From: Defluviitaleaceae bacterium
Lineage (GTDB): Bacteria; Bacillota; Clostridia; Lachnospirales; UBA5962
Assembly (NCBI GenBank): GCA_009787355.1
Contig: WRGD01000152.1
Span: 19,519 to 83,518, forward strand
Length of the DNA stretch: 64,000 nucleotides
Reading direction: 5' to 3'
Part shown: piece after piece, positions 316-64,000 of the stretch
Layout of the letters: each line of letters starts with the position of its first letter
Numbering within the stretch: the stretch's first letter is position 1
The notes under the pieces: model-generated
Database searches by the model: none
What the model was told of the DNA's origin: nothing
Seen by the model: the letters and a program-made list of their open reading frames with translations, nothing else
Position numbers and translations under genes: made by a program

Positions 316-543
316 ATGCCAAAAAAAATAAATTATGAACAATTTATAGAAAAATTAGAAGAAATAGTTAATAAATTAGAAAATCCAGATACATCTCTTG
401 AAGATTCTATAAACTTGTATAAAGAGGGAATAGACATAGCAAAATTTTGTAATGAAAAATTAGATAGTATGGAAGGTGAAATTAAAATTCTAAAAAAATC
501 TGTAGATGATATTTTTACAAAAGAGGACTGGGTAGAAAATTAG
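316..543 (+). CDS. xseB: Exodeoxyribonuclease VII small subunit
   Basis: 75 residues, the normal size for XseB. The sequence follows the family pattern: N-terminal NYEQFIEKLEEIVNKLE, then the short DTSLEDSINLYKEGI turn and helix, then a second helix with E-G-E-I. These form the two-helix hairpin that coats XseA. The stop codon TAG shares its final G with the GTG start of ispA, so translation is probably coupled. It lies between xseA and ispA as in most clostridia. The assignment is firm from sequence pattern and position. Confidence 0.95.
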   Translation: MPKKINYEQFIEKLEEIVNKLENPDTSLEDSINLYKEGIDIAKFCNEKLDSMEGEIKILKKSVDDIFTKEDWVEN

Positions 544-1394
544 TGGAAAAAAATTTTGAAAAATACAAAAACATAATCGATAAAAATTTAGAAAAATATG
601 TAAATATAAAATCAGATAAACTCAAAGATTCTGTTATATACTCTTTAACTAGTGAAGGCAAAAGAATTAGAGGAATTTTACTTTTACTTGTGTTTGAGAG
701 TATAACGAACAGTAGTGATTATAAAAATATTTTGCCATTTGCCGTATCGCTTGAAATGATTCATACTTATTCTTTAATACATGATGATTTGCCGAGCATG
801 GACAACGATGAATATAGAAGAGGAAAATCCTCTAATCATATTGTTTTTGGTGAAGATATAGCTATTTTGGCAGGAGATGCACTTTTAAATTTGGCATATG
901 AAAATATGGTAAATCACATATATAAATACCCTGCAAAACAAAATATAAAAGCTATGAGAATAATATCGAAAGCAGCAGGGCTTATGGTATCTGGTCAAGC
1001 ACTCGACATTACACATAATACTTTAAATGTAGATGGAAAAATTCTTTTTGACATACAAAAATATAAGACAGCATATCTAATACATTCAGCGTTATATACT
1101 GGTGCTATTCTTGCCACTAAAAACAAAAAAATCTTATCTGACTTTTATACCGCAGGGTTTTATATAGGTCTTTCTTTTCAAATAAAAGATGATTATAATG
1201 ATTATTTAGAGTATAAAAAATCTAGTAAAAAAACAAGTGATATAATAAACGACAAGGCAACTTATGTTTCTATTTTTGGCGAAAATAAAGCAAAGGAAGA
1301 TATACAAATTTTGAAATCTAAAATTTTGATTATTTTTAACAAATATAATTTTAAAAATAATAATTTGAGTGATTTTGTTGAATGGTTATTTTAG
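543..1394 (+). CDS. ispA: Polyprenyl (farnesyl/geranyl) diphosphate synthase
   Basis: 283 residues from a GTG start that overlaps the xseB stop. The first aspartate-rich motif DDLPSMD is at residues 81-87, with RRGKSSNH just after. The second motif reads KDDYND (near residue 215), a slightly divergent form of the usual DDxxD. The G-K-R-I-R-G substrate motif is at about 39-44. The enzyme condenses IPP with allylic diphosphates for isoprenoid carriers. The last codons (DFVEWLF, stop TAG) lie inside a 40-bp sequence repeated at 4752-4791. The ancestral downstream gene was therefore probably the DUF212 gene now at 4796. The dxs gene often found nearby is absent. It is slightly shorter than many homologues but looks intact. 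Confidence 0.93.
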   Translation: MEKNFEKYKNIIDKNLEKYVNIKSDKLKDSVIYSLTSEGKRIRGILLLLVFESITNSSDYKNILPFAVSLEMIHTYSLIHDDLPSMDNDEYRRGKSSNHIVFGEDIAILAGDALLNLAYENMVNHIYKYPAKQNIKAMRIISKAAGLMVSGQALDITHNTLNVDGKILFDIQKYKTAYLIHSALYTGAILATKNKKILSDFYTAGFYIGLSFQIKDDYNDYLEYKKSSKKTSDIINDKATYVSIFGENKAKEDIQILKSKILIIFNKYNFKNNNLSDFVEWLF

Positions 1395-1409
1395 TTAAGG
1401 ATATAATAA
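1370..1409 (+). repeat. 40-bp direct repeat, left copy (end of ispA and old intergenic ribosome site)
   Basis: Identical base for base to 4752-4791; a near match extends it left to 1361 with two differences. It covers the last eight codons and stop of ispA, followed by AAGGATATAATAA, which at the right copy is the ribosome site of the DUF212 gene. The stretch 1410-4751 therefore sits between two copies of what was once a single junction. This resembles an attachment-site or target duplication around an inserted cassette. No integrase is encoded inside. Confidence 0.9.
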
Positions 1410-1413
1410 CACA

Positions 1414-1452
1414 AAAACTCAACACCGTATTATATCTTAGGTGTTGGGTTTT
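1414..1452. terminator. Bidirectional hairpin terminator between ispA and the C39 gene
   Basis: AAAACTCAACACC (1414-1426) pairs with GGTGTTGGGTTTT (1440-1452) over 13 positions with one T-G wobble. The A-rich 5' arm and T-rich 3' arm let it work on both strands. It ends ispA transcription and also closes the convergent peptide/ABC operon whose last gene stops at 1472. It lies just inside the left repeat, so it belongs to the inserted cassette. Confidence 0.7.
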
Positions 1453-1471
1453 GAATTAAGTTTTGCAAGTA

Positions 1472-1840
1472 TTAGAATATTGGAGTTACTTTTATAATTC
1501 CATATCCCGGGTCTGATACTATAATTTTATTTTTGGTTATGCTGTGTATCACAATATAATGTTCTAATCTATTATCTACAACAACATGAGCAATGCAGGG
1601 TAATGGAAAATGTAAATAAAAAGCCTCTTTAGTAACTTTTACAGCTTTTACTACAAATCCAAAAAATTCTAATGTTTTGATTATATCTTTTGCAGTTGTG
1701 CCTTCTTTACTTATATTTGTTATTTCTCGTATTTTTGAAATATCAATATTTATACCATTTTGTTTTAATACTGTTGATATACAAGCTATGGCACAGTCAT
1801 TTTCATTTTCTTGTAATACGGTATGATATTTTTTAAACAT
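1472..1840 (-). CDS. Standalone C39-family cysteine peptidase (double-glycine leader processing)
   Basis: 122 residues that match only the peptidase domain normally fused to the N-terminus of bacteriocin ABC exporters. The motif Q10..NDCAIACI carries the oxyanion Gln and nucleophile Cys16, HYIVIHSI carries the catalytic His (about 94), and the VSDPGYG block carries the Asp. The protein ends right after this domain, with no membrane or ATPase part. Its partner is probably the separate ABC system encoded just upstream, and its likely substrate the GG-leader peptide at 4288-4419. It is the last gene of the cassette operon, 1 base after the permease. It could be a truncated exporter, but all catalytic residues are present, so a free processing peptidase is more likely. 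Confidence 0.85.
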   Translation of the reverse strand: MFKKYHTVLQENENDCAIACISTVLKQNGINIDISKIREITNISKEGTTAKDIIKTLEFFGFVVKAVKVTKEAFYLHFPLPCIAHVVVDNRLEHYIVIHSITKNKIIVSDPGYGIIKVTPIF

Positions 1841-1841
1841 A

Positions 1842-2555
1842 TTAAAAGTCCCTTTTGTTATAAATTTTCAATGATAAGAATAATGATATTAAAAAAGGTA
1901 TAGTTAAAAATAAAACAAATAATAATATTGTAATTATTATTTGTGTAACAAAGCTACTAACATTTAAAAATAACAATTCTACAAAATTTATTAAACTATA
2001 TAAAGGTACAGTAGAAATATCGTTTTCATTTGTAGGTCTAAGGGCGAAAATAACAATAAGCATTACAACAGAAGGTATTAAAGAATTTAATAACATTAAC
2101 TTTTTAAATCCAAATTTAAAAAATAATGGAAATTCAATAATACTTATAATCATAGAAATAAAAGAAGCAAACATTGTTACAGCTACTATTTCTACTATAC
2201 TTACACCATGGTTTAAAATATTTCTTACAATTACAGCAAACAAAAAGTATGTAATACTAGCTAAAATTGAAAATATAATTAAAAAAATATATCTACCAAA
2301 AACAATAGTTTTTCTTTCTATACAAAGCATTGCATATAACTTATCAAGTCCATTTTTATCACCAGCAGAAAAAGGAAGAGAAGCAAGTCTAGAACCTGTT
2401 GTAACAACTCCTATAGAAGCTCCCAAAATCCCCGCAAAATTATAACCCATTGCTAAAAACACCATAAAAACAATACCACCAACAGCTACCACTCTTGGAC
2501 TTATAGCAAAAAAATCTGACTTTATAAATCTAATTATCTTTTTCGTATTTGACAT
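1842..2555 (-). CDS. ABC-2 type permease of the peptide cassette (copy 1)
   Basis: 237 residues with about six hydrophobic segments and no catalytic motif. It is a clear sister of the 237-aa protein at 3435-4148: both begin near FI-S-DF-A, share KNGLD-LYAMLCIERKT and GRY, and end in L-SLKIYN-DF. It starts 1 base after the ATPase stop, so the two are translationally linked. The two permeases probably form a heterodimer with the ATPase to move the cassette peptide or to confer immunity. The family resembles bacitracin/lantibiotic-immunity type ABC-2 permeases, but I cannot name the subfamily. Confidence 0.75.
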   Translation of the reverse strand: MSNTKKIIRFIKSDFFAISPRVVAVGGIVFMVFLAMGYNFAGILGASIGVVTTGSRLASLPFSAGDKNGLDKLYAMLCIERKTIVFGRYIFLIIFSILASITYFLFAVIVRNILNHGVSIVEIVAVTMFASFISMIISIIEFPLFFKFGFKKLMLLNSLIPSVVMLIVIFALRPTNENDISTVPLYSLINFVELLFLNVSSFVTQIIITILLFVLFLTIPFLISLFLSLKIYNKRDF

Positions 2556-2556
2556 A

Positions 2557-3405
2557 TTAAATCACCGTATTTTGTTCATTGTTAAAGCAAATTGCTAAAT
2601 CACTCAAATTTGCGTTTGAAATATCTAGACCATTTGCAATTTTACTTAAATTTTCTTTGTGTATAATAGCTTTAAATCTATCCGAATATCGTTTAGAACC
2701 TATAATAATATTTAAAAAGTCGCCTGTTATTTTGTCTAAACTACCTTCAATATTCAAATAATTTGTAAGTAGTGATTCTTTAGTATCTGATATAACTATA
2801 CTACCATTTGCAATATATGTAACATCATTCGCTATTTTTTCTATATCTTCTACTATATGTGTAGAAAACAATACACTACGTCCTCCTATTTTCACATAAT
2901 CTAATAGTAAATTACATATCTCATCTCTTGCGGTTATATCTAACCCACTTGTTGGTTCGTCTAGTATTAATATTTTTGCATTGTGAGAGAGAGCAACAGC
3001 AAGCATTAGTTTTACACTCATACCACGGCTTAATTCTTTTACTTTTTTACTCTTGTCTATGCTAAATTGTTTTAATAAATTATCAAAACGAGAGGCATCC
3101 CAATTTTCATGGTAAGGTTTTACAAATTTCTCAACTCCTGATACTTTCCAACGTTCTTCATATACTACAAAATCCATAACAGAACCTACATCAGAATTGA
3201 TGTATTTTGTATCATTTCCAAAAAATTTTATAGTACCAGAATCGTATTTACTTATACCAAGTATAGATTTTAAAAGTGTTGTTTTTCCAGCACCATTTGG
3301 TCCTACAAAACCCATTATAGTATTTTTAGGAATTGTCATATTTATATTTTTTATACTGAAATTTTTGTATGATTTTGTTAAATTAATTATTTCTAATGTG
3401 TTCAT
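2557..3405 (-). CDS. ABC transporter ATP-binding protein of the peptide cassette
   Basis: 282 residues. Walker A is GPNGAGKTT (about residues 35-43). The signature is LSRGMSVKLMLA, close to the YtrB/BcrA style of immunity or export ATPases rather than the canonical LSGGQ. Walker B is ILILDEPTSGLD, and the H-loop is FSTHIVED. A roughly 70-residue C-terminal extension follows, as in drug/bacteriocin-resistance ATPases. It lies between the two sister permeases, so one transporter is likely. It may export the matured peptide, or protect the producer, with the C39 protein trimming the leader. Co-direction and 1- and 29-base gaps support a single operon. Confidence 0.88.
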   Translation of the reverse strand: MNTLEIINLTKSYKNFSIKNINMTIPKNTIMGFVGPNGAGKTTLLKSILGISKYDSGTIKFFGNDTKYINSDVGSVMDFVVYEERWKVSGVEKFVKPYHENWDASRFDNLLKQFSIDKSKKVKELSRGMSVKLMLAVALSHNAKILILDEPTSGLDITARDEICNLLLDYVKIGGRSVLFSTHIVEDIEKIANDVTYIANGSIVISDTKESLLTNYLNIEGSLDKITGDFLNIIIGSKRYSDRFKAIIHKENLSKIANGLDISNANLSDLAICFNNEQNTVI

Positions 3406-3434
3406 AAAATTTCCTTTATAAAATTTTTAAATTT

Positions 3435-4148
3435 TCAAAAATCTTTATTGTTGTAAATTTTTAAGGATAATAGAAAAGATAAAATTAATGAAATAAGCCA
3501 GAACGTAATAAATATTAAGTCTGGTAATAAAATATTTATAAACAGTGTATTTTGATTATTTGTATATTCCAAAAAGTTTACAAATCTATATATAGGTGTT
3601 GGAGAGCTATCATCTATAGACCTAATAAAAAGCATTATAAATAGAACTAATAATGATGGTACTGCAGAAGTATATCGCTTTAGCTTATATCCTCCAAATT
3701 TAAAGCTTAATGGAAAGTGTAGTATATTTATTGTCGTTGATGCAAAAAAGCATACAAAGGTTATTATTGTTATTTCAATTGTACTTACATCATAATTAAA
3801 AAGTTTTTGCATTATTGTAGCGAATAAAAAATATATTATGCTAGATATTAAAGACAATAAAACAAAAAAGGTATATCTACCTAAAACAACAGTTTTGCGT
3901 TCGATACATAACATTGCGTATAATCTATCTAAACCGTTTTTACCTTCTCCAGCTTCAAAAGCAATATTAGGTAAAGCAGCTCCTATATTTATTATGCCCA
4001 TAGATACACCTAAAACGCCTCCAAAATAATATCCAAAAATGCTTACAATCATAACAAAAGCAAAAATACCACCTTTAAAAAATAATTTTGGCATTACAGC
4101 TAAAAAATCAGAGTGTATAAATTTAATTAAATCTCGGCTATTTGTCAT
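3435..4148 (-). CDS. ABC-2 type permease of the peptide cassette (copy 2)
   Basis: 237 residues, several strongly hydrophobic helices, paralogous to the 1842-2555 product and identical in length. It is the first transporter gene after the GG-leader peptide gene, with a 139-base gap holding a hairpin (4223-4262) that may reduce transporter transcription relative to the peptide. No soluble domain is visible. Its probable role is half of the membrane channel for the peptide, paired with copy 1. Two similar permeases flanking one ATPase suggest an old tandem duplication inside the cassette. Confidence 0.75.
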   Translation of the reverse strand: MTNSRDLIKFIHSDFLAVMPKLFFKGGIFAFVMIVSIFGYYFGGVLGVSMGIINIGAALPNIAFEAGEGKNGLDRLYAMLCIERKTVVLGRYTFFVLLSLISSIIYFLFATIMQKLFNYDVSTIEITIITFVCFFASTTINILHFPLSFKFGGYKLKRYTSAVPSLLVLFIMLFIRSIDDSSPTPIYRFVNFLEYTNNQNTLFINILLPDLIFITFWLISLILSFLLSLKIYNNKDF

Positions 4149-4222
4149 TTTTAAACCACTTTTCTAATTTATTATCAAAATATTTAATTACAAGTAAATG
4201 ATAAAAAATATTTCAAAAGACA

Positions 4223-4262
4223 TTACCTTAAATACCTGATATATTTATAGTATTTAAGGTAA
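4223..4262 (-). terminator. Hairpin between the leader-peptide gene and its transporter genes
   Basis: TTACCTTAAATAC (4223-4235) pairs with GTATTTAAGGTAA (4250-4262), a perfect 13-bp stem with a 14-base loop. It sits 25 bases after the peptide stop. Bacteriocin operons commonly carry such an element, so that peptide mRNA exceeds transporter mRNA. The following bases are only moderately T-rich on the - strand, so it may be a partial terminator or an mRNA-stabilising stem. Confidence 0.55.
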
Positions 4263-4287
4263 CATTTTTAGATTAAATTACGAAAAA

Positions 4288-4419
4288 CTACATAAGATTC
4301 CAAACGGTATAAAGAGCGTATGCAGCACAAACAGCTATGTCGAACCAACCACCTGTAATTTCTTCAGTTTCTGCTTCTGTCAACTCTGTAAAACCGTCTA
4401 AATTTAATATATCTTCCAT
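4288..4419 (-). CDS. Double-glycine-leader peptide (putative bacteriocin or signal precursor), 43 aa
   Basis: The ATG at 4419 is preceded by AAGGA eight bases upstream. The product begins MEDILNLDGFTELTE and reaches ETEEITGG: an acidic 24-residue leader with hydrophobic residues spaced as in class II bacteriocin leaders and a Gly-Gly cleavage site. The predicted core is WFDIAVCAAYALYTVWNLM: 19 residues, very hydrophobic, aromatic-rich, with one Cys and no net positive charge. A C39 peptidase and an ABC system follow in the same operon. The core is short for a class II bacteriocin and lacks YGNGV or a pair of Cys. It could instead be a membrane-active peptide, a communication peptide, or a substrate for modification, although no modifying enzyme is seen nearby. 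Confidence 0.82.
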   Translation of the reverse strand: MEDILNLDGFTELTEAETEEITGGWFDIAVCAAYALYTVWNLM

Positions 4420-4537
4420 ATTTATTATCCTTGTCTGTATAAGATAAATTTTTTATTGCCAAATAACATTTACTATGTAATTTAGATTTAAAGTTTCGTT
4501 TTTCTTTCTTCATAAGTAAATATTAGTTGATAATTAC

Positions 4538-4566
4538 TTTATAACAAATAAAATTGCATTTTTCAA
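4538..4566 (-). promoter_or_regulatory. Sigma-A type promoter of the leader-peptide operon
   Basis: On the - strand the -35 TTGAAA (4561-4566) and -10 TATAAA (4538-4543) are separated by exactly 17 bases. It would leave an untranslated leader of roughly 110 bases before the peptide ATG at 4419. No clear operator repeat is visible there. Confidence 0.55.
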
Positions 4567-4636
4567 TACAGTTTAGCGGTTTTTATGCAGGTAATTTCTG
4601 TTAATTTGCGTTGTACCTCAACGCATATATTTTGAC

Positions 4637-4664
4637 TTGAATTAATTCTGAAAAATGTTATAAT
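4637..4664 (+). promoter_or_regulatory. Possible promoter reading into the DUF212-tlyA-nadK-recN genes
   Basis: TTGAAT (4637-4642) and a perfect TATAAT (4659-4664) with a 16-base spacer on the + strand, about 130 bases before the DUF212 ATG. If real, it restores expression of the downstream genes cut off from ispA by the inserted cassette and its terminator. Confidence 0.5.
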
Positions 4665-4751
4665 TTCTTAAATATGTTCACGAGAAACAATAATAAAAAG
4701 TGAATAAAATAACATAAAGAAAACATATATTTTCTTTAGTTTTAATTTAAA

Positions 4752-4791
4752 TGATTTTGTTGAATGGTTATTTTAGTTAAGGATATAATAA
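4752..4791 (+). repeat. 40-bp direct repeat, right copy (orphan ispA tail plus DUF212 ribosome site)
   Basis: Exact copy of 1370-1409. It contains the terminal ispA codons and TAG without the rest of the gene, so it is a genomic scar. It ends 4 bases before the ATG of the DUF212 gene, and its AAGGA (about 4779-4783) serves as that gene's ribosome site. This shows that ispA and the DUF212 gene were adjacent before the 3.3-kb cassette arrived. Confidence 0.9.
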
Positions 4792-4795
4792 ATAA

Positions 4796-5227
4796 ATGAA
4801 TGGAATTTTAAAAAATGATATATTAATTTCTGCTATAATAGCTTGGTTTATAGCACAACTTATAAAACTTATTATAAGTATATTACATCACAAAAAATTT
4901 GATATGAGTCTTCTTGTTAGTTCTGGTGGTATGCCAAGTTCTCACACTTCACTTACTGTATCTATGGCAACAAAAATAGGAATAATAGAGGGTTTTAGCT
5001 CTACTTTTTTTGCTATTGCTGCTGTTTTTTGTATGGTTGTTATGTACGATGCAATGGGAGTAAGAAGGCAAGCAGGAAAACACGCACAAATACTTAATAT
5101 TCTTATACTTAATAATCTTGCACAAAATATTAAAGATTTTGGAAAATTAAAAGAACTTGTTGGTCATAGACCTATAGAAGTTTTTTTTGGTATGGTCTTA
5201 GGCATTACAGTTGCTTTTTTATTTTGA
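4796..5227 (+). CDS. Divergent PAP2-family membrane protein (DUF212, YuiD-like)
   Basis: 143 residues with about four membrane segments. The family signature SSGGMPSSHTSLT (about residues 42-54) is followed by the YDAMGVRRQAGKHA block and a C-terminal LVGHRPIEVFFG-G. These are the acid-phosphatase/PAP2-like residues, with SSH and GHR motifs on the membrane face. The substrate is unknown; a lipid or isoprenoid phosphate would fit its old position beside ispA, but that is inference. The ATG is chosen by the AAGGA contributed by the 40-bp repeat. Stop TGA. Confidence 0.9.
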   Translation: MNGILKNDILISAIIAWFIAQLIKLIISILHHKKFDMSLLVSSGGMPSSHTSLTVSMATKIGIIEGFSSTFFAIAAVFCMVVMYDAMGVRRQAGKHAQILNILILNNLAQNIKDFGKLKELVGHRPIEVFFGMVLGITVAFLF

Positions 5228-5251
5228 TTGTTATGTTAGGGGATTGTAATA

Positions 5252-5977
5252 ATGGAACGTTTTGATGTATTATTATCAAAAGAAATAAATATTTCTCGTG
5301 AAAAAGCAAAAGAGTTAATAATTTCGGGAAGAGTAAATTTAGATGGAACAGTATTAAAAAAGCCAAGTAAACTTTTAAATAGTCTTGGAAAAGTGTATAT
5401 ATCAGAATTAAATACGAAATATGTTAGTCGTGGTGGATACAAATTAGAGCAAGCTATAAAGAATTTCAAAATAGATGTAAAAGATAAAATATGTTTAGAT
5501 ATAGGTGCCAGTACAGGAGGTTTTACAGATTGTTTACTTAAACATAATGCAAAGTTAGTTTATGGAATAGATGTTGGTACTAATCAGTTAAATAAGGAAC
5601 TTTTGAATAATAAAAGGGTTATTAGCATGGAAAATACTAATATAAGAAATTTAGATATAGTATCGAAGTTACCTAAATTTGATATTGTAGTAGTAGATGT
5701 TTCTTTTATATCTATATCTTTAGTTCTACCTATTATTTATAAACTATTGCTTCAAAATGGAATATGTATATCGCTTATAAAACCACAGTTTGAAGTTGGT
5801 AAAAAATTTTTAAACAAAAAAGGTGTTGTAAATGACAAAAAAGCAATTGATACTTGTTTGAAAAATATATATATCATTGCTAGTTCACTAAATTTTAATG
5901 TTAGTATACCGATAGAATCAAGTCTTCTTGGCAAAAATGGAAACAAAGAATATTTTTATAAATTAGAAAAAAGGTAA
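5252..5977 (+). CDS. tlyA: TlyA-family rRNA 2'-O-methyltransferase / putative hemolysin
   Basis: 241 residues in two parts. An N-terminal S4 RNA-binding domain (about 1-60) carries SREKAKELIISGRVNLDG. A FtsJ-like methyltransferase follows, with KICLDIGASTGGFTD (SAM site, about 73-87), YGIDVGTNQL, DVSFIS and LIKPQFEVG. It uses the K-D-K-E style residues of 2'-O-ribose methyltransferases. Actinobacterial TlyA modifies 16S and 23S rRNA; here the exact target is inferred. It starts 24 bases after the DUF212 stop and ends 4 bases before nadK, so it belongs to one transcription unit. It is shorter than many homologues (about 270 aa) but complete in motifs. Confidence 0.9.
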   Translation: MERFDVLLSKEINISREKAKELIISGRVNLDGTVLKKPSKLLNSLGKVYISELNTKYVSRGGYKLEQAIKNFKIDVKDKICLDIGASTGGFTDCLLKHNAKLVYGIDVGTNQLNKELLNNKRVISMENTNIRNLDIVSKLPKFDIVVVDVSFISISLVLPIIYKLLLQNGICISLIKPQFEVGKKFLNKKGVVNDKKAIDTCLKNIYIIASSLNFNVSIPIESSLLGKNGNKEYFYKLEKR

Positions 5978-5981
5978 CAAA

Positions 5982-6797
5982 ATGTTTAACATTGGGATAT
6001 TTCCGAACACAACTAGAGATATAAATTTAGAATATACAAGAAATTTAATATCTTGGCTTATTATTAATAAATGTAATATTTATGTAACAGAATGTAATCA
6101 AGATTTAGAAAATGTAGTATTCACAACTATAGATATTATTTGTAAAAAATGCGATTTTGTTATTTTTTTGGGTGGAGATGGTACAATACTTCAAAAAGCC
6201 CCCATATGTGCAAAGTTTAATATACCTCTTATCGGTATAAATTTGGGTTCTGTTGGATATCTTACAGATGTCGATAAAGAAGATGGTACTTTAGCTATAG
6301 GTAAAGTTTTACAAAAAAATTATAGAATAGAAAAAAGGATGTTGATAGAAACAAAGGTAAAAGGAGAGACTAAAACAGCTCTAAATGATATATGTATAAC
6401 AAAAAAGGACCAAACAAAATTAATTACACTAACAATAAAAGTTAATGGAGAATACATAGATACTTATAGAGGAGATGGTATTATAGTTAGCACTCCAACG
6501 GGTTCTACTGCCTATAATTTAGCAGCAGGTGGACCAATTGTAAAGCCAGATATTTGTGCCATTATAGTAACTCCTATTTGTCCTTATAAAATATATTCAA
6601 GACCTTTGGTATTATCTGGTGATGATATTGTAACAATATCATCTAATGATTACTTTTGTACTTCTGTTTCTGTAGATGGATATATGGATAATTTGACAGA
6701 AGAAATAACAATAAAAAAATCGATAAATAAAGCCAGTATAATACGAACACATAAACAAAATTTTTACGACGTATTAAGAAAAAAGTTTTTCATCTAG
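5982..6797 (+). CDS. nadK: NAD kinase
   Basis: 271 residues. FLGGDGTILQKAP carries the GGDGT catalytic motif (about residues 62-66), followed by NLGSVGYLTDVD, and later DGIIVSTPTGSTAYNLAAGGPIV, the diagnostic substrate-binding block. It phosphorylates NAD to NADP. The ATG at 5982 follows an AAAAGG site at the end of tlyA. recN begins 11 bases after its stop. The argR gene that usually separates nadK and recN in clostridia is not present. Confidence 0.96.
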   Translation: MFNIGIFPNTTRDINLEYTRNLISWLIINKCNIYVTECNQDLENVVFTTIDIICKKCDFVIFLGGDGTILQKAPICAKFNIPLIGINLGSVGYLTDVDKEDGTLAIGKVLQKNYRIEKRMLIETKVKGETKTALNDICITKKDQTKLITLTIKVNGEYIDTYRGDGIIVSTPTGSTAYNLAAGGPIVKPDICAIIVTPICPYKIYSRPLVLSGDDIVTISSNDYFCTSVSVDGYMDNLTEEITIKKSINKASIIRTHKQNFYDVLRKKFFI

Positions 6798-6808
6798 GAG
6801 TATCGATT

Positions 6809-8467
6809 ATGATAGAAGAATTATCAATTAAAAATATGGCACTGATAAAAGAAGTTATTATTAATTTTTCAAAAAATCTTAATATACTTTCTGGAGAAAC
6901 AGGCTCAGGTAAATCTATAATAATAGATAGTATAAATTTTGTATTTGGAGGTAAAATTGGAGGAGATTTTATTAGGTCTGGTGAGGATTTTGCTATTGTT
7001 AGTATTTTGATAAGTATTTCTTCTTTTTCTAGTATAGAATTTTTAAAAGAAAATGGTATACCTATAGAAACAGATAACAAAATTTTGATAACAAGAAAAA
7101 TATGGATAACCGGAAAGTCTAGTATAAAAATAAATGGAAAATCTGTTACAATATCTTTACTTAGAGAATTTTCATCTTATTTTATAGATATATATGGTCA
7201 ATTTGAACATAATTATTTATTGAATGAAAAGGAACATATAAATTTACTAGATAAATTTTGTAATTCTTCTCTTGAACAACTTAAAATAGGACTTTCTGAT
7301 TCAATTGAAAATTATAAAGATATAAACACAAAAATTTTGAAAATGGAAAATGAAACAAAGAATATAGATACGTTGGCAGAAGAAATAGAAGAATTACAAA
7401 CTTTAGATTTAAAAGATAATGAAGAAGATGAAATATTAAAAAAAATTAAATATCTTAACAATTTTAGAGAACTTTCGGAAGGTATAAATAAATCAATATC
7501 TATGATATATCCGGAGGGTGGAGCTATTGATAAAATTGCAAAAGCAACTAAATTTTTAAAAAATATATCTAATATAATGGAAAATACAGAAGTAATAGAA
7601 AATTTAGAAAATATATTATTACAATTACAAGATATAAATCATGTTTTAAAACATACTGTTACAGACTTTGACCAAAAAAAGCTAAATGCTTTAGAAGATA
7701 GGCTTGCTACTATCCATACAGTAAAAAGAAAATATAAAAAAGAAATAAAAGATGTAATATTATACTTTGAAAATTTAAAAACTTTGCTAGATGAGATAGA
7801 AAATAAAGCTTTTATAATAGAGAATTTGAAAAATGAACGAAAATTTTTTAAAGAAAAAATTGTATATTTTTGTGCAGAAATAAGCAAATTAAGATGGGAA
7901 GCTAAAATATTTTTAGAATCTAAAATAATAGAAAGTCTGAAAGATTTGGGTATGAAAAATGTAGATTTTCAAATCAGCATAGAAAAAAAAGAAACATTTA
8001 GTATAAATGGAAATGATATAATAAAATTTATGATAACAGCAAATCTTGGTGAACCTTTAAAACCATTATCTAAAATAGCATCTGGAGGAGAGATGAGTCG
8101 TATAATGTTATCTTTAAAAATAGTTTTGTCAAGTGGAAACAATGTAGAAACATTTATATTTGACGAAATAGATACAGGTGTAAGTGGAAGAACAGCACAG
8201 AGAGTTGCAGATAAATTATATAAATTTTCTAAAAACAAACAAATAATATGTATTACACATTTACCACAAATAGCATCTATGGCAGACAGACACTTTTTGA
8301 TAGAAAAAGTAAATTATAATAATGAAACAATAACAAATATAAATAAGCTAAAAAATAATGAAATAACAGAAGAAATAGCAAGACTTATAGGTGGTACAAA
8401 AATAACAGAAAACACAATAAAAGCTGCAAAAGAAATGAAAGAGTTGGCTACTTTATGGAAAGTATAA
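6809..8467 (+). CDS. recN: DNA repair protein RecN
   Basis: 552 residues, the usual length. Walker A GETGSGKSI is near residue 30, and a long middle with heptad-like helices (about 150-370) matches the SMC-style coiled coil. The C-terminal ATPase half carries ASGGEMSRIMLSLK and the Walker B FDEIDTGVSGRTAQ. It is an SMC-like ATPase that gathers DNA ends during double-strand break repair. In spore-formers spoIVB and spo0A typically follow; here a FUSC membrane protein follows instead. Intact. Confidence 0.96.
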   Translation: MIEELSIKNMALIKEVIINFSKNLNILSGETGSGKSIIIDSINFVFGGKIGGDFIRSGEDFAIVSILISISSFSSIEFLKENGIPIETDNKILITRKIWITGKSSIKINGKSVTISLLREFSSYFIDIYGQFEHNYLLNEKEHINLLDKFCNSSLEQLKIGLSDSIENYKDINTKILKMENETKNIDTLAEEIEELQTLDLKDNEEDEILKKIKYLNNFRELSEGINKSISMIYPEGGAIDKIAKATKFLKNISNIMENTEVIENLENILLQLQDINHVLKHTVTDFDQKKLNALEDRLATIHTVKRKYKKEIKDVILYFENLKTLLDEIENKAFIIENLKNERKFFKEKIVYFCAEISKLRWEAKIFLESKIIESLKDLGMKNVDFQISIEKKETFSINGNDIIKFMITANLGEPLKPLSKIASGGEMSRIMLSLKIVLSSGNNVETFIFDEIDTGVSGRTAQRVADKLYKFSKNKQIICITHLPQIASMADRHFLIEKVNYNNETITNINKLKNNEITEEIARLIGGTKITENTIKAAKEMKELATLWKV

Positions 8468-24542: not shown

Positions 24543-26330
24543 TTATTCATTTCTAATCAAAGCTTTTATATGCTCAAGAATTGGGTCAACGTTGTTTACC
24601 CAATGCTCTAACGTGTACGGTATTAATACGTGCGGGGTTAGCGTTTCAAGTTCTATAACTATACTTTGTGCCATTTCGGCTGTCCAAGCAAATGCCTTTT
24701 CGATTTTCACCGGGGTTTATTAAATTTGTTAAAAAATTCGGTATTGTTATAAAAAGCTCGCTATTAGTTAGTATATGTGTTAAAGGTGGCAAGTCTTCGT
24801 TTTCAGACACTTGCCCGTAAAAAACTGCTCTTTGGTCTAGCGGTTCGCCAATAATTACTGCACCTTTGTATTCAAAAATATGCCCGCCGATACGTGTTGC
24901 AGACGCAGAACGTGGACTTATAGCGTAAAAAACCATACCTTCTTGTAAAGACGGCGACATTTCAAACAAAGCCTGTATAAGTGGCATTGCGTAAGCTGTG
25001 CTACCACCGCCGTTTTCCCTTACGTCAAAAAGTATTGCGTTTACTTCATAGTTTTCTAAAATGTTTGTAATAACTGGGCTTGGAACAAATAAGTTACTTC
25101 CCTGCTCTGCTGCGTCTACAACTTGTTGTAATGTGTAGCCTTCTGGTACGTCAACTAAAATTTCATTTAACAAATGGGCGTTTCCTTCTTCGTCTACCAT
25201 TAATGAAGGCATCCACGCCTCTACGATTATGTGTAAAATGCCGTATTCTTCTATGAAAAAGTGGCGGTTGTTAGATACTTCACTAGGAACGGCAAAAGCA
25301 GGAATTTCACCGTCTGCTCTGTTGTCAACAAAGACTTCATTAGCTTCAAATATGTCTAATTCGTGGTTTTCATTTAAAGTTATGCTTTCACCATTTGCAA
25401 AAGTATACGTTACTTCTCTACCTTCGTACAAGCCTAGGTAATAAAGAACGGCTACATTTGACATTCTTCTTGCTGAAACGTCCAGTGCGGCAAGTGGCGT
25501 TTCTACGTTAATCGTAGCCCTAAAGTCGTCTAAAAGTTGTTCTACAGGCACGCCGCTTATTGAAACTAACCTTTGGTTAAGTACGTGTTCAAATTGCGGT
25601 GTACTTCTTCTTGCGTAAAAACCACTAGGAAAATAATAAAATTGTATAGAAGTAGTAACATTATTTATCCAAAATGGTAAAACACTAATGTGATTATCGT
25701 TAAAAGTGGCTACTAGTCGTTGAATACCGAATATTATTTGCAAGTCAGTAAGTTGTGGCACTCTGTTTATAAGGTCGTCTACAGCGGTGTTTACGTATTC
25801 ACGAAGTTGTATGTTTTCTTCTAAGTCCTTTATAGTTTCTTCCCAAAATCTAGGGTGGCTTATAAATAAACTTTCTCTAAACTGTTCTAAGTCCGCTAAC
25901 CACATAGCGTTACGTTTTGGGTTGTCTTCACCCATTATATTTAAGTTAAATGGGTCGGCACTAGGTAGCTGTGCAGAAAGCATAAAATAAAGGTTTTCAA
26001 GTGTAATGCCCATTGCGTTTTCAAAGAAAAGGGGAACTACGTAAGTCGTACCGTTTATAATAACTGGTGGGTGTTCAAGTGTAACAGTTCTTTGTTCACC
26101 TGTAGCCTCTGTAACTTGTATGGCTGTTTCACCTATAGTAAGTTGTACTATTAAGTCTGACTGTAGGTTCATTGTAATAGTAACGGTTTGTGCCCCAGAG
26201 TTCCAGTCAATACTAACCCACAAAGCTGCGTCCCTTATTGTATCTCTAAGGGGCTGAAATGTAGTTCCTTCGTGAATATAGTGTTTTCAAATTGTATTGC
26301 TTGCTCTGTAGCGTTTATTGTTGTACGTAA
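24543..26330 (-). pseudogene. Broken S41-like protease with CuAO-N-like domain
   Basis: The main frame runs 24646-26223 and aligns along its length with the intact S41 protein at 26470-28323 (shared MGEDNP-RNAMW-ADLE-FR, LTDLQIIF-QRLV, AILFDVREN-GG, SPRSASA-RIGG). Both ends are in other frames. At the 5' side the open frame breaks near 26290: an N-terminal remnant (ATEQAIQFENTIF) is out of frame with PLRDTIRDAALWV. At the 3' side the frame ends in junk (GICLDSRNGTKY), while the true tail (TAEMAQSIVIELETLTPHV, ending in LIRNE and TAA at 24543) continues in another frame. No signal peptide is usable. The gene is at least doubly frameshifted. Confidence 0.85.
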
Positions 26331-26434
26331 AACTAAACGAAAACGCAAATACAGCTATTAAACCAAATTAGGTAGTTAGACATTTGTTTGTTGTTTACTT
26401 TCATTAATAAGTACCTTACAAATTATTTTTTATT

Positions 26435-26466
26435 TTTATGCCCCCCTAGTTATAGGAGGGCATAAA
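26435..26466. other. GC-rich hairpin after the intact S41 gene, followed by A-tract
   Basis: On the - strand TTTATGCCCTCC pairs with GGGGGGCATAAA (12 bp, one wobble), with AATAAAAAATAA after it instead of a T-tract. It lies just past the S41 stop. The same hairpin-then-A layout recurs at 29969 and 41780. Confidence 0.5.
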
Positions 26467-26469
26467 GTT

Positions 26470-28323
26470 CTACTGCGTAGCTCTAATTAATGCTTTTATG
26501 TGTTCAAGAACTGGGTCAACGTTGTTTGCCCAATGTTCTATACGGTACGGTATTAATACGTGTGGGTTTAACGTTTCAAACTCTACAACTATGCTTTGTG
26601 CCATTTCTGGTGTGTAACCAAACCCTTGTGCGTCGTCTGAAGTTGGGTTCGTTAAGTCTACTAAAGAGTTCGGCACCATAAACCAAATTTGACTATTTGT
26701 AAGTGTATAGTTTAACGGTGGTAAGCCCGGGTGGTCGGTCGCTTGGCTGTAAAAAATTGCTCTTTGGTCTAGCGGTTCACCGATAATTACTGCACCGAGT
26801 GCTTCAAAAATTTGCCCTCCGATACGGCTTGCAGAGGCTGAACGTGGGCTTATAGCGTAAAAAAGCATACCTTCATCTAAAGTTTCTGCCCTTTCAAATA
26901 AAGTTTCTATAAGCGGTATTGCAAAACCTGTGTTTCCACCCGGGTTTTCTCTAACGTCAAAAAGTATTGCGTTTAGTTCATAGTTTTCTAGTATATTTGT
27001 TATAGCGGGGTTTGCTCTCCACAGTCTAAGTGTTGGGTCTGCCTCTGTTTCTTCTAAAAGCTGTTCTATCGTGTAGCCTTCTGGCATAGCAAATACTGTG
27101 TCTCCTATATAGTGCGGTTCTCCAACTTCATTTGTGAAAAATGAAGGCATCCATTGTTCAAGATTTATATGAAGAATGCCGTATTCCTCTATAAAAGTAT
27201 GGCTATTTTGCGACATTTCTGACAACGGTATATCAATTAATCGGTTTTGAACCAAAATGTCGTTAAAGTCAGACCTTGTTGTTTCGTGGTTTTGGTCAAG
27301 CGTTATAGATTGCCCATTTTCAAAAGTAAACGTTACCTCTCTACCATCGTAAAATCCTAAGTAGTATAGAACAACTACATTTGATATTCTTCTTGCTGCA
27401 ACGTTTAATTGACCAAGTGGTGTTTCAGAACTAATTGTATCTTTAAGCCTTGGCAAAATCTCTTCTAAGGGTGTGTCGTTTATATGTGTTAACCTTTCGT
27501 TTAAAACGTGTGCAAACTCTGGAAGTGTGCGAATTAAATAAACGCCGTCAAACCACCTAAACTCTGCTGACGTAACAGGTTCAGTAATCCAGCTAGGAAG
27601 TACTCCAAAGTGGTTGTCGTTAAACTGTGATACTAGTCTTTGCATACTAAAGATTATTTGTAAGTCTGTAAGGTTTGAAACGTCTTGTATAAGTTCGGTA
27701 ATACTTTCGTCAAATTGTTCACGAAGTCTTAAATTTTCGGCTGTTTGGTTTACACGGCTGTCTACAAATTTTGGGTGTGAAGTAAATGCGGCTGTTCTAA
27801 ACTCTTCTAAGTCTGCTACCCACATAGCATTACGCTCGGGGTTGTCTTCACCCATTATTTGTAAATTGAAAGGGTCTATTCTTTGCGGAGCATTGAACAG
27901 TTGTAAAAATGTGTCCATAGAAATATCAAGGAAGTTAGAAAAGAACTCCGGTGTTATGTGCGTACTACCGCCTATAATAACAGGCGGTGCTAACAAAGTT
28001 ACATTTCTTTCGTCTCCGATTATTGGTACAATGTTTACAACTGTGTTACCTATAAAAAAAGTTGCTTGTCTTGAAAATTCTCCGTGTTCTTGGGTTACAA
28101 TAATTTTTGAAAGTTCTTCGTTCCATTGTATAGTACCCGGGAAACCTAGTTCTTCCATTGTGTCCCTAAGTGGTAAAAGCTCTAACCCGTCTACAATGAC
28201 TGCATTTGGAAAAGTTATTTGCGTCCCAGTAGTATTTTCTGCTGCATAAGTGGGTATGCTAACTACATTAGTTATAACTAATGTAGTTGCAAGGGAAAGT
28301 GCTATCAATTTTTTGTTTTTCAT
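26470..28323 (-). CDS. Secreted S41-like serine protease with N-terminal CuAO-N-like domain
   Basis: 617 residues from the ATG at 28323, supported by GAGGAGG. A signal peptide (MKNKKLIALSLATTLVITN...AYA-AE) predicts export. Residues about 40-150 resemble the copper amine oxidase N-terminal domain used by Firmicutes as an envelope-stalk module (LPLRDTMEELG, then SKIIVTQ and the APPVIIGGSTHITPEFF signature). Residues about 155-617 are an S41/tail-protease-like core: AILFDVRENPGG (D-x-R-x-N-x-GG), AISPRSASASRIGG with the probable catalytic Ser, and GAVIIGEPLDQR. No CtpA-style Lys is seen, as in tricorn/IRBP-like members. Paralogue of 24543, 41852 and 43952. Substrate unknown. Confidence 0.8.
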   Translation of the reverse strand: MKNKKLIALSLATTLVITNVVSIPTYAAENTTGTQITFPNAVIVDGLELLPLRDTMEELGFPGTIQWNEELSKIIVTQEHGEFSRQATFFIGNTVVNIVPIIGDERNVTLLAPPVIIGGSTHITPEFFSNFLDISMDTFLQLFNAPQRIDPFNLQIMGEDNPERNAMWVADLEEFRTAAFTSHPKFVDSRVNQTAENLRLREQFDESITELIQDVSNLTDLQIIFSMQRLVSQFNDNHFGVLPSWITEPVTSAEFRWFDGVYLIRTLPEFAHVLNERLTHINDTPLEEILPRLKDTISSETPLGQLNVAARRISNVVVLYYLGFYDGREVTFTFENGQSITLDQNHETTRSDFNDILVQNRLIDIPLSEMSQNSHTFIEEYGILHINLEQWMPSFFTNEVGEPHYIGDTVFAMPEGYTIEQLLEETEADPTLRLWRANPAITNILENYELNAILFDVRENPGGNTGFAIPLIETLFERAETLDEGMLFYAISPRSASASRIGGQIFEALGAVIIGEPLDQRAIFYSQATDHPGLPPLNYTLTNSQIWFMVPNSLVDLTNPTSDDAQGFGYTPEMAQSIVVEFETLNPHVLIPYRIEHWANNVDPVLEHIKALIRATQ

Positions 28324-30012: not shown

Positions 30013-31272
30013 TTATCTAAAAGTTGCACGTCTTCTTTCTATTAAGTTTAATGTTTCGTCTATAAAGTCTTGTGTAGCTACACTTGGGTTTGGTAAAGAC
30101 CTACCTGAAAAGTGGTCGTATAGTAAAGAAAGAGAAGTTACGTTGTAGTCGTCCATTATCGTTTGTTGCCACACATCGCTTTCTACGTATCTGTTAAGTA
30201 GCATAGTCGCTAAAGAACCGATATAGTAACCTTCTAAAACTAGCCCTATTGTTAATCGATTTTCATAATCAATATAGGTCATCCAATAAGCTAACGCTTC
30301 GTCTAACCCTTCCCTAGTTTGTACTTCGTTTGGGAAAAGAATGTTTAATGCTGCAACAAAGTCAAAGTACGTAGCTGTACCTTCTGATCTGTCTTGGTCT
30401 GTAGAGATTAGGTGTTGCTGCGGAAAATTTTCTCTAAAGGCTCTATACGTTGCTAAGGCTGTTAAAGTATAGTCTTCGTTGTCTCTATTAACAACTGCGA
30501 GTCTAAGGTCTCTCATAAGTAAGCGGCGTGCTACTCTTGCGTCTGTTTCTTCTAAAAATTCCTCTCTTTCTGCGTTAACTCTTATTAAAAATTCTGCAAA
30601 TTCTTCTTCACTAACTAGCATTTCAAATGTTTCAAAGTCAAACACGGTTCTACTAGCGTTTGCCCATTTTTGACTTTGTTCTAATACGTGGAAACCTTCG
30701 TGAACACCTAGCCTAAAAACCTCTGTAGGAGCAAAGCTTGGGTGTAGCACTTCCCAGTTGTTTAAGTTGTTTACGTCTATTGGTGTAAAATAACCTCTAC
30801 CGTCTCCAAGTTGGTGATACATGTCAATGCGTTCTTCATCTAAGCCACGTGCTATAGCATCTTGTAAAGAAATTTCGCTTACTGTACCGTCTGAGTAAAC
30901 AAGCCACAACCTGTCTGGCTCTGAAACTTCCTTAACAATAGCGTACATGTCTAAAACAGAGTTGTTTAGCCAAATTGTCGGTGCTATTTCGTTGTATGAA
31001 CTAATTAGCCAGCCTAGAAAATTTAAATGCTCTTCAAGTGTATAAGGCACGTCAAGAAAGTCCATACTAAAACGGGAAAGTTCAGGTTGTGTTACTTCGT
31101 TTGTTACTGGTTCTTGAACTGGTACTTCTTGAACCAATGCTGGTGGTTGTGTTATTTCTTGCGTTGGTTGTGATTCTTGTGCTGGTGGCGCGTCTGAATA
31201 TAGCCCGCACGCTGAAAGTGTTAATAAAGCTGCTGTACCAAGTCCTAAAGTTGTTAAATTTTTTATTTTCAT
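30013..31272 (-). CDS. Lipoprotein with HExxH metalloprotease-like motif (copy A)
   Basis: 419 residues. The lipobox LSACG at about 18-22 gives a lipidated Cys21. A P/Q/E/V-rich linker follows to about 65. The C-terminal domain of about 350 residues is mostly helical. VHEGFHVLEQ holds an HExxH motif, and about 130 residues on EGTATYFDF could give the third Glu ligand, a gluzincin-like layout. It is a tandem paralogue of 31294-32538, with blocks such as ETDARVARRLL-RDLRLAVVNRDNED nearly identical. Family not recognised by name. Inferred to be a zinc peptidase anchored on the outer face of the membrane. Confidence 0.65.
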   Translation of the reverse strand: MKIKNLTTLGLGTAALLTLSACGLYSDAPPAQESQPTQEITQPPALVQEVPVQEPVTNEVTQPELSRFSMDFLDVPYTLEEHLNFLGWLISSYNEIAPTIWLNNSVLDMYAIVKEVSEPDRLWLVYSDGTVSEISLQDAIARGLDEERIDMYHQLGDGRGYFTPIDVNNLNNWEVLHPSFAPTEVFRLGVHEGFHVLEQSQKWANASRTVFDFETFEMLVSEEEFAEFLIRVNAEREEFLEETDARVARRLLMRDLRLAVVNRDNEDYTLTALATYRAFRENFPQQHLISTDQDRSEGTATYFDFVAALNILFPNEVQTREGLDEALAYWMTYIDYENRLTIGLVLEGYYIGSLATMLLNRYVESDVWQQTIMDDYNVTSLSLLYDHFSGRSLPNPSVATQDFIDETLNLIERRRATFR

Positions 31273-31293
31273 TTTTTGTTCCTCTTTTCATAT

Positions 31294-32538
31294 TTAATTA
31301 TTTGCGATAGGTTCTAAAAATCGCCTTTCTTCATCACTTAATGATTCATAAGAATATACAAGCTCTGCACGTCTTCTTTCTATTAAATCTAATGTTTCGT
31401 CTATAAACTCTTGTGTAGCTACGCTTGGGTCTGGTAGTGAAGTTCCTGAAAAATGGTCATATAGCAGAGAAAGAGGCGTTACATTATAGTCATCCATTAT
31501 CATTTGTTGCCATATATCGTTTTCTACATATCTATTAAGTAACATTGCTGATAAATAGCCAACATGATAACTTTCTAAAATTAACCCCACCGTTACCAAG
31601 CTTTCATACTCAATTAGATTCATAAAATAAGCAAATGCTTCGTCTAGCCCTTCCCTAGTTTGTACTTCGTCTAGGAAAAGTGTGTGTAAGATTGCAACAA
31701 AGTCAAAGTACGTTGCTGTACCTTCTGCTCTGTCGTGTTCTGTAGAGATTAAATGTTGGCGTGGAAAGTTTTCTCTAAAGTCTCTATACGTTGCTAAGGC
31801 TGTTAAAGTATAGTCTTCGTTATCTCTATTAACGACTGCAAGTCTTAAATCTCTTATAAGCAAGCGACGTGCTACCCTTGCGTCTGTTTCTTCTAAAAAC
31901 TCTTCTCTTTCAGCGTTAAGCCTTAATAACTGTTCTGCGAATTCTTCTTCACTAACTAATATTTCAAATGTTTCAGGATCTTGCACAGCATCCATTGCAT
32001 TTGCCCATTTACTTTGTTCTACTGCATGAAAAGCTTCATGTACAGTCATTTTAAAAGGGGATAACGGTGCAAAGCGAGGATTACTAAAATCTCCATAGTT
32101 TAGGTTTTCTACGTTCAAGCGATTAAAATGACCTCTACGGTCTTTTTCAAAAAGATGCCAATCAAAAATCATAGATTCTTCATCTAAACCAAGTTCTAAG
32201 GCATATTCTAAAGTAATTTCACTGATTGAACCTTCAGTGTTAATAAGCCAAAGTTGGTCATTACCATATTCTTGCACAACAGTATAAATATCTAAAACAG
32301 AACTATTAAGCCAAAGTGTTGGTGCTATTTCGTTAAATAAACGAATGTTTTTTGCTAAAAATGCTATGTGTTCTTCAATCGTATATGGAACGTCAAGAAA
32401 GTCCATACTAAAGCGAGAAAGTTCAGGTTGTGTTATTTCTTGCGTTGGTTGCGGTTCTTCTGCATATAGCCCACAAGCTGAAAGTGTTAACAAAACTGCT
32501 GAACCAACGCCTAAGATTGTTAAATTTTTATTTTTCAT
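31294..32538 (-). CDS. Lipoprotein with HExxH metalloprotease-like motif (copy B)
   Basis: 414 residues from the ATG at 32538; an in-frame TTG at 32556 is less likely. The lipobox is LSACGLY, with a shorter linker than copy A. The motif VHEAFHAVEQ again gives HExxH, and RAEGTATYFDF supplies the likely third ligand. It has the same length and layout as copy A 21 bases downstream, so a recent tandem duplication is likely. Copy A has a longer P/Q/V linker, and copy B ends with an extra EERRFLEPIANN tail. Function inferred only from the motif; no family name. Confidence 0.65.
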   Translation of the reverse strand: MKNKNLTILGVGSAVLLTLSACGLYAEEPQPTQEITQPELSRFSMDFLDVPYTIEEHIAFLAKNIRLFNEIAPTLWLNSSVLDIYTVVQEYGNDQLWLINTEGSISEITLEYALELGLDEESMIFDWHLFEKDRRGHFNRLNVENLNYGDFSNPRFAPLSPFKMTVHEAFHAVEQSKWANAMDAVQDPETFEILVSEEEFAEQLLRLNAEREEFLEETDARVARRLLIRDLRLAVVNRDNEDYTLTALATYRDFRENFPRQHLISTEHDRAEGTATYFDFVAILHTLFLDEVQTREGLDEAFAYFMNLIEYESLVTVGLILESYHVGYLSAMLLNRYVENDIWQQMIMDDYNVTPLSLLYDHFSGTSLPDPSVATQEFIDETLDLIERRRAELVYSYESLSDEERRFLEPIANN

Positions 32539-35380: not shown

Positions 35381-36253
35381 TTAATTCTCTATCAATAATT
35401 TAATTTTATTTTTTAATGCTAATTTTTCACTAGTAGGAAGTTCGTCATATTCTTTTAAAAATTCTATAATAAACTTCCTTAAAGCATTGTTAAACCAAGG
35501 CTCGTTAGATTTTAAACTATTTGCATTTAAGAGTATGTCTACCCAACGCTTAGATAAAACGTCTTGCCAGTCAGAAAGCAATTCATATTTTATTAAACTA
35601 TTTTTGTCTTCTTTAAATTCTAAAACTCCATTTTTGTTTGACCTATATAGCAAATTCCATTTTTTTATTTCATTGAACGATACTTGTGGACGTGGACTTC
35701 TATCTGGAAATTGCATTTTTGAGTTAATGGCATTTATATATTGTCCAGTTGTAATATCAATATTGTTATCTTTAGAAAATTTAACAAAAACAACCCATTC
35801 ATTAGGTGTTATCTGCTGTATACTAGAACCAGGTATAGCATCCGTTTTAGTAGTTTTTAACTCAATGGTTTCATAATATTTAATACCATTTAGAATTATC
35901 TCCAAACATAAATCGGGTTTTGTGTAAACACCATCTTTTTCATTATATATTAAATTTTTTATATTCGGTGTTATTTCTTCAGGTAATAAAACATTAGCGA
36001 TTTCAAATTTATTTATATCGTCTATATTTGTATTTTCAGAATTATCAAAAACAACTCTCACAATATCTGTATTTACAGGCAACTTATTAAAACTATGTTC
36101 TATAAGTTTTTTTAAATATTCTTTTAAAGGTCTGTCTGTGTTCGCCTCATCTTGCCAAAGAGAAATTTTCAAAATTTCATTTTTCTTTGTTTGTAAATAT
36201 TTTTCTAACTCATATAAATACACAGCTGTAAAAGCCTTAATTATTTTTTTCAA
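35381..36253 (-). CDS. Putative type II restriction endonuclease
   Basis: 290 residues, soluble. A PD-(D/E)xK style core can be read: KPDLCLEI (about residues 112-119), then YETIELKTTKTDAIPGSSIQ with E-L-K as the catalytic E-x-K (about 130-150), then ITPNEWVVFVK. It lies 36 bases downstream of a C5 cytosine methyltransferase on the same strand, the usual companion position. Recognition sequence unknown. Base composition is clearly more AT-rich than the flanking hydrolase genes. Just past its stop another frame reads IDRELKEAVMVWEFN then stop, perhaps debris of an interrupted gene. Confidence 0.7.
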   Translation of the reverse strand: MKKIIKAFTAVYLYELEKYLQTKKNEILKISLWQDEANTDRPLKEYLKKLIEHSFNKLPVNTDIVRVVFDNSENTNIDDINKFEIANVLLPEEITPNIKNLIYNEKDGVYTKPDLCLEIILNGIKYYETIELKTTKTDAIPGSSIQQITPNEWVVFVKFSKDNNIDITTGQYINAINSKMQFPDRSPRPQVSFNEIKKWNLLYRSNKNGVLEFKEDKNSLIKYELLSDWQDVLSKRWVDILLNANSLKSNEPWFNNALRKFIIEFLKEYDELPTSEKLALKNKIKLLIEN

Positions 36254-36289
36254 GTATATATCTCCTTAGTTCAAGCACTTAAATAAATT

Positions 36290-63870: not shown

Positions 63871-63910
63871 CAATAATAATTTTTATGATTTATCATAAAA
63901 ATTATTATTG
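63871..63910. repeat. Perfect 40-nt palindrome (19-bp arms, TT loop)
   Basis: CAATAATAATTTTTATGAT (63871-63889) and its exact complement (63892-63910) are separated by TT. It lies about 120 bases upstream of the first glycan-operon gene and runs into the 15-bp array. It could be a terminator for a gene beyond the window, a protein-binding palindrome, or a replication/cruciform site. Confidence 0.9.
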
Positions 63911-64000
63911 CTTACGAAATTATTGCTTACGAAATTATTGCTTACGAAATTATTGCTTACGAAATTATTGCTTACGAAATTATTGCTTACGAAATTATTG
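63904..64000. repeat. 15-bp tandem repeat array, at least 6.5 units
   Basis: The unit ATTATTGCTTACGAA recurs without a single change at 63904, 63919, 63934, 63949, 63964 and 63979, with a seventh copy cut by the window edge at 63994. Its first bases ATTATTG are the end of the preceding palindrome's right arm. It may be an iteron array, a variable-number locus upstream of a surface-glycan operon, or a slippage product. There are no spacers, so it is not CRISPR. Confidence 0.95.

Follow-up and report, generated by a model that had tools for sequence, protein, structure and literature searches.

The window analysed here, a stretch of 64,000 nucleotides from a Defluviitaleaceae bacterium (positions 19519-83518 of contig 152, WRGD01000152.1, in a genome of 2.25 Mb and 152 contigs that is 96.5% complete), carries a predicted peptide-export cassette lodged between ispA and a DUF212 gene of a housekeeping row and enclosed by a perfect direct repeat of 40 bp. 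The repeat is probably the right end of a shortened and worn copy of the front of that operon, a copy that likely gives the distal genes DUF212, tlyA, nadK and recN a promoter of their own behind the cassette. The names tlyA and DUF212 rest on family matches (PF01728 and PF02681), while nadK and recN are names presumed from the sequences rather than taken from a family search.

The 40 bp at 1370-1409 recur without a mismatch at 4752-4791; in 30 sequences generated from the window by a third-order Markov model, the longest perfect repeat reached 16-20 bp. The 40-mer occurs at two places only in the 2.25-Mb genome, even with up to 3 mismatches permitted. The match extends to 49 bp with two substitutions (4743-4791 against 1361-1409, 47/49), and comprises the tail of ispA and the spacer in which the ribosome site of DUF212 is predicted. 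Repeats of such length are not unique in kind, because the window holds another perfect 40-bp pair (30441-30480 and 31782-31821, within tandem paralogous genes) as well as a 15-bp tandem array.

The row era-nusB-xseA-xseB-ispA enters the window from its left side, and its cut-off distal half follows the right repeat. Relatives were compared at two levels, 7 genomes of the family including this one, which alone represents its genus among the genomes compared, and 392 genomes of the order. DUF212 was matched in five of the seven family genomes, this one included, and gave no match in the other two. In all four others with a match, ispA immediately precedes DUF212 and the complete order nusB-xseA-xseB-ispA-DUF212 is found; the gap measures 24 nt (L006) and 74 nt (L007) between open reading frames (ORFs), and 88 bases (L008) and 27 bases (L009) between aligned ends. 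The genes tlyA, nadK and recN directly follow DUF212 in one of them (G006), in the same order as in the window, and in the other three tlyA lies 1.9-2.5 kb past DUF212, with further genes up to the ends of the stretches. Another Clostridia contig (L004) has the same empty junction with 30 nt between the ORFs; a distant Aquibacillus locus (L005), with no ispA match within the 16.4 kb examined, is uninformative on this point. On this comparison, ispA originally adjoined DUF212, and the 3.3 kb between the repeats is an insertion. A first-pass annotation of the window had already read it so, describing a repeat over the 3′ end of ispA and the ribosome site of the next gene, and between its copies an addition of peptide, transporter and protease genes with neither integrase nor transposase. 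The identity of the repeats, beyond chance in the simulations, the ispA tail and spacer, the empty junction in four family genomes and L004, and the ORFs and families of the insert all bear that description out, the ribosome site being a prediction; the concern that the repeat might be a common dispersed sequence is met by its two genomic sites.

The right repeat is accompanied by more of the operon. Window positions 4635-4747 align with contig positions 18126-18248 at 83% identity over 123 columns; this original lies 1,271-1,393 bases to the left of the first base of the window and contains the final 11 bases of era, then the promoter region of nusB (PnusB) and nusB codons 1-16. In a search of the whole genome, in which 40 of 122 first-look candidates were scored, the era/nusB front was matched with an E value of 7.9e-32, followed by the ispA tail (2.4e-16), and the best other match reached 0.017. 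The alignment score of 83.5 compares with at most 27 for 200 random contig 113-mers aligned to the operon front. A dispersed promoter repeat was rejected, the era/nusB front being the one strong match in the genome among the candidates scored. The nusB-front copy joins the ispA-tail copy with an overlap of 5 nt. Since both pieces stand in native order and orientation, the right side of the insertion is a copy of PnusB-nusB-xseA-xseB-ispA from which about 2.6 kb is missing. The features in question are the following.

543-1394, plus strand: ispA (polyprenyl synthetase), complete; PF00348, 180 bits.
1361-1409, plus strand: native ispA tail and spacer, holding the left repeat 1370-1409.
1410-1471, minus strand: left end of the insertion, with a stem-loop at about 1413-1454 (fold of -13.7 kcal/mol on the minus strand).
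1472-1840, minus strand: lone C39 peptidase of 122 amino acids, without the usual fused transporter part; PF03412, 109 bits.
1842-2555, minus strand: ATP-binding cassette (ABC) permease B, ABC2_membrane_5; PF13346.
2557-3405, minus strand: ABC ATPase; PF00005, nearest NCBIfam model PmtA.
3435-4148, minus strand: ABC permease A, ABC2_membrane_5; PF13346, 44% identical to permease B.
4288-4419, minus strand: ORF of a 43-amino-acid precursor with a double-glycine leader.
4607-4625, plus strand: terminator-like hairpin just before the copied promoter, the sole such site in the scan (0.8 expected).
4635-4699, plus strand: copied end of era (its last bases) and copied promoter region of nusB, with TTGAAT-16-TATAAT and TG at 4637-4664; a 10-bp deletion takes the nusB ribosome-site region.
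4700-4747, plus strand: dead nusB stub, codons 1-16 (GTG start, stop at codon 6), with an unchanged 28-bp stem-loop stretch at 4716-4743.
4743-4791, plus strand: second copy of the ispA tail, followed by the spacer in which the DUF212 ribosome site is predicted; holds the right repeat 4752-4791.
4796-8467, plus strand: DUF212 (4796-5227; PF02681), tlyA (PF01728), nadK and recN, together the distal half that the insertion cut off from the row.

Away from the start region of nusB, the copy is evenly conserved (53/56 in the promoter region, 28/28 in the stem-loop and 47/49 in the ispA tail), which fits one copying event. The nusB ribosome-site and start region has suffered the 10-bp deletion and 7 changes in 25 positions, versus 5 in 133 elsewhere. 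The stub reads VNKIT*RKHIFSLVLI* against MDKRTERKHIFSLVFII in nusB, which points to decay in place rather than to a donor's working nusB. Both hexamers, TTGAAT and TATAAT, and the TG before the second one are identical to the original, with one change in the spacer. The A/T-rich stem-loop of 28 bp in nusB codons 6-15 (L045:18217-18244 in the original) is likewise unchanged in the otherwise decaying stub, a hint of some function in the mRNA leader. The copied promoter, predicted from consensus, likely supplies DUF212-tlyA-nadK-recN.

Taking into account that the spacing between the right ispA tail and DUF212 is native and that the left copy ends within the spacer, the simplest history would be a duplication, with the cassette at its joint, and a later deletion. 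In this model, the entry of the cassette would have coincided with a direct duplication of about 2.8 kb, stretching from the era end as far as the spacer behind ispA, or have taken place at its joint. For instance, DNA in which the cassette stood beside PnusB-nusB-xseA-xseB-ispA may have integrated by homologous or by one-sided illegitimate recombination. A deletion of about 2.6 kb would then have removed the redundant second nusB-xseA-xseB-ispA and fused nusB codon 16 to the ispA tail. Selection would have kept the promoter, leader stem-loop and ribosome site for the distal genes while translation of the nusB stub decayed, the remnant thereby re-supplying genes that lie behind an opposite-strand cassette and the terminator-like hairpin 4607-4625. 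As insertion and duplication share the joint 1409/1410, a single event is suggested, for example integration of DNA with the cassette beside PnusB through the shared operon segment, or a template switch.

Several points weigh against this history. The assembly is in 152 contigs, and the joints are known from the assembled sequence. No intermediate was found among the genomes compared, in which the genus has only this one, and the left joint shows no recognisable DUF212 remnant. In the stretches of all four relatives era was not found near or upstream of nusB, so that nusB as operon head is seen in this genome only. The Fisher test that sets the nusB start region apart (p 0.0005) used regions picked after the alignment had been seen. 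Promoter-like sites are common in the 3.7-kb region scanned, with 37 found against 30.2 expected by chance; hence the weight of the copied promoter lies in its conservation between the copies and its position, not in the scan. In the same scan, terminator-like sites amounted to 1 found against 0.8 expected.

A further point is that a single replication or repair event with template switches yields an identical structure, joining the ispA tail, the cassette, PnusB with the 5′ end of nusB, and the ispA tail again, with never a full second copy. Such an event would account in one step for an insertion and a duplication that share the joint 1409/1410, and the short overlap at the nusB/ispA joint suits it. 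However, it requires a cassette template in the same cell, and no second cassette copy was found in the genome (40 of 356 first-look candidates scored). From the structure at hand it is indistinguishable from duplication plus deletion; we regard it as unlikely, if far from negligible.

Attachment sites offer a quite different explanation of the repeats, and the first-pass annotation had leaned this way in proposing a minimal mobile module or site-specific integration at ispA. An element, or the decayed, CIME-like (cis-mobilizable element) remains of one, would have entered the 3′ end of ispA through a recombinase acting in trans or since lost. Consistent with this, the perfect 40-bp repeat leaves ispA whole, the junction is empty in relatives, and a search of the genome for recombinases gave one match for PF00589 and two for PF00239, each on a contig other than this one. 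The proposal falters on the right repeat, which belongs to the longer collinear copy of nusB front and ispA tail: an attachment site has no reason to carry an operon-front copy, while duplication with internal deletion predicts it. Moreover, the insert has no recombinase and the core has no unusual arms (227 of 2000 random window 40-mers score equally well for inverted arms). As to an element with an integrase at the same site, viral contigs gave no match to 31 bases of the core, the relatives seen have the empty junction, and among the genomes compared the genus is represented by this one alone. The repeats are very unlikely to be attachment sites, and neither attL and attR of a cis-mobilizable element nor those of a site-specific island describe a collinear copy with ordinary core arms. 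A transposon with target-site duplication was likewise rejected, there being no transposase ORF and the duplication including pieces from 2.6-2.8 kb away. As a separate observation, the only PF00589 match of the genome (L044:396-1799, G000:C48) is a phage-type integrase of 467 amino acids with a helix-turn-helix-like stretch at about residues 137-200; neither XerC, XerD nor any other tyrosine recombinase came up in the same PF00589 search of the genome.

That the assembler linked unrelated pieces through a shared 40-mer, as 152 contigs and a repeat close to the word length of some assemblers might suggest, is scarcely credible, since the right copy bears its own substitutions and abuts the decayed nusB stub, so that the sequence of stub plus ispA tail exists regardless, and since permease B, the C39 protein and ispA are each found on 2 contigs (the longest of 85,500 bases versus 83,518 for the present one), possibly from the same sample.

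Under the favoured duplication with internal deletion, the arrangement suggests a route by which cargo can be tolerated in the middle of a housekeeping row, namely a copy of the row's own promoter placed beyond the insert. Short perfect repeats that flank cargo are commonly interpreted as attachment sites, yet they can be all that is left of a duplication, and this comes to light only if the surrounding sequence is examined for the remainder of the copy.

The cassette itself is on the minus strand, in the transcription order 43-amino-acid precursor, permease A, ATPase, permease B and C39 peptidase, and may end at the stem-loop modelled at about 1413-1454, which was not flagged in the terminator scan. 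No integrase or transposase appears among its ORFs in either the ORF list or the family search. Against the ComC, cerein-type and BlpC models the precursor scores weakly, below cut-off in each case. The C39 domain can be aligned with residues 11-126 of 4ry2, a bacteriocin transporter that we take to be PCAT1 (PCAT, C39 peptidase-transporter). The lone C39 peptidase is predicted to cut the double-glycine leader of the 43-amino-acid peptide, and the two-permease ABC transporter to export the peptide or to give immunity to it. Composition is uninformative on a foreign origin, the G+C content of the cassette (25.6%) equalling that of its flanks (25.7% and 25.5%).

A C39 match is present in 93 of the 392 genomes of the order, most of the matches listed lying in open frames of about 700-800 amino acids; the present genome has a single one, in a 131-amino-acid frame. 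Among candidates of 0.55-1.75 times its length in a set of 5.8 billion proteins, 4 of 17 matched, the window's own included, and two of the four lie on contigs shorter than 1.8 kb and are possibly cut. A close stand-alone form is thus, at the search sensitivity used, rare. Relatives of the permeases occur in 49 of the 392 genomes, and of the 29 permease loci listed, the window's own aside, one (G063) has a C39 domain within a flank of about 1.5 kb. That locus combines a related ATPase (51%) and permease (31%) with double-glycine peptides, a full PCAT and an HlyD-like gene, the last two labels being a reading of ORFs. Because G063 pairs the related ATPase and permease with a full PCAT and an HlyD-like gene, the set in the window looks like a reduced or split form. 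At the search sensitivity used (2042 candidates), the only close relative of permease B was the window's own protein, and a plasmid search with it gave no match. The 12 records of a phage search with the C39 domain are all below 60% identity, and therefore indicate only that the domain is widespread; of 3 pattern matches for the ATPase in viral contigs, none is a relative.

A separate array was seen at L050 (G338:C6:18000-32000), where a 60-bp sequence over the start of a PCAT-like gene has four copies upstream (at 5254, 7528, 8030 and 8453; 83-93% identity). Small membrane-protein ORFs and double-glycine peptides lie between the copies, giving an array of truncated PCAT starts, and the ORF 6339-7184 among them has the look of a tyrosine recombinase. 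Elsewhere in the window are two pairs of tandem paralogues with secreted-looking products: proteins of about 420 amino acids at 30025-32459, with 78% DNA identity across 1.1 kb, and large proteins at 24552-27014 (78% over 541 bp), the latter with what we take to be the look of S41 peptidases. According to the ORF list, a cytosine-methyltransferase-like gene adjoins a possible cognate restriction enzyme gene at 35381-37366. The contig terminates in the perfect 15-bp tandem repeat (63904-64000), probably a stop point of the assembly.

Among known systems, the Pmt exporter is approached through the ATPase, which is nearest to PmtA. Pmt is made up of PmtABCD, including a second ATPase, PmtC; here one ATPase gene, with no second, stands with two permeases, and its 211.7 bits fall below the PmtA cut-off of 350. 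PCAT loci share with the cassette the combination of double-glycine peptide and C39 peptidase, as in G063. They differ in that C39 is fused to an ABC transporter, while the 122-amino-acid ORF ends right after the C39 domain, its matches to full-length NCBIfam models are far below cut-off, and no PCAT was found in this genome. In the available text of PMC10885120, C39 domains are described as parts of PCATs, and an excised one, LahT150, is an active protease.

CIMEs resemble the cassette in carrying cargo between repeats at a gene end without integration genes. As the available part of PMC5704250 describes them, they keep attL and attR of a former integrative and conjugative (ICE) or integrative mobilizable (IME) element; here the copied operon front explains the repeat better than attachment sites do, and a CIME was set aside for that reason.

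The microcin H47 island of Escherichia coli is likewise a cassette of peptide-antibiotic type between direct repeats and without its own recombinase, as described in the available parts of PMC3191183 and PMC5426353. Its repeats of 146/148 bp, 77% identical, surround 12.6 kb, and natural strains have empty sites; here 40 perfect bp surround 3.3 kb, and the repeat, known from sequence, forms one end of a copied operon front. In the second of these papers, within the text available, recombination between the copies of a perfect 46-bp repeat, spaced by 886 bp, took place on a plasmid in the absence of RecA, no island-excised clones were obtained, and the authors state that chimeras of the polymerase chain reaction are not fully excludable. 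In view of that 46-bp plasmid repeat, a rare precise excision of the cassette through the 40-bp repeat, restoring the native junction, is possible by analogy. In a further reading, which we hold improbable, the cassette would be a reversible unit that is neutral for the operon. As long as it is present, the promoter, leader stem-loop and ribosome site that it has in copy would maintain expression of the distal genes, and its loss by recombination through the 40 bp would give back the native ispA-DUF212 operon exactly. If this were true, a peptide cassette could come and go within an essential operon with no recombinase of its own.

Among the titles listed by a literature search on operon insertions there was no close precedent, a statement that extends no further than the searches made. 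A close parallel is promoter capture by tandem duplication or deletion, documented in bacteria according to the available portion of PMC11111574, which cites Anderson and Roth 1978 and Li and Bock 2019. There, the joint of a duplication made by illegitimate recombination puts an existing promoter before promoterless genes, and in the window, too, a copy of an upstream promoter is joined in the same orientation before downstream genes. The present case differs in that the genes rescued would be the host's own distal housekeeping genes, severed by the insertion, and in that the copy has been pared to promoter, stub and ribosome site.

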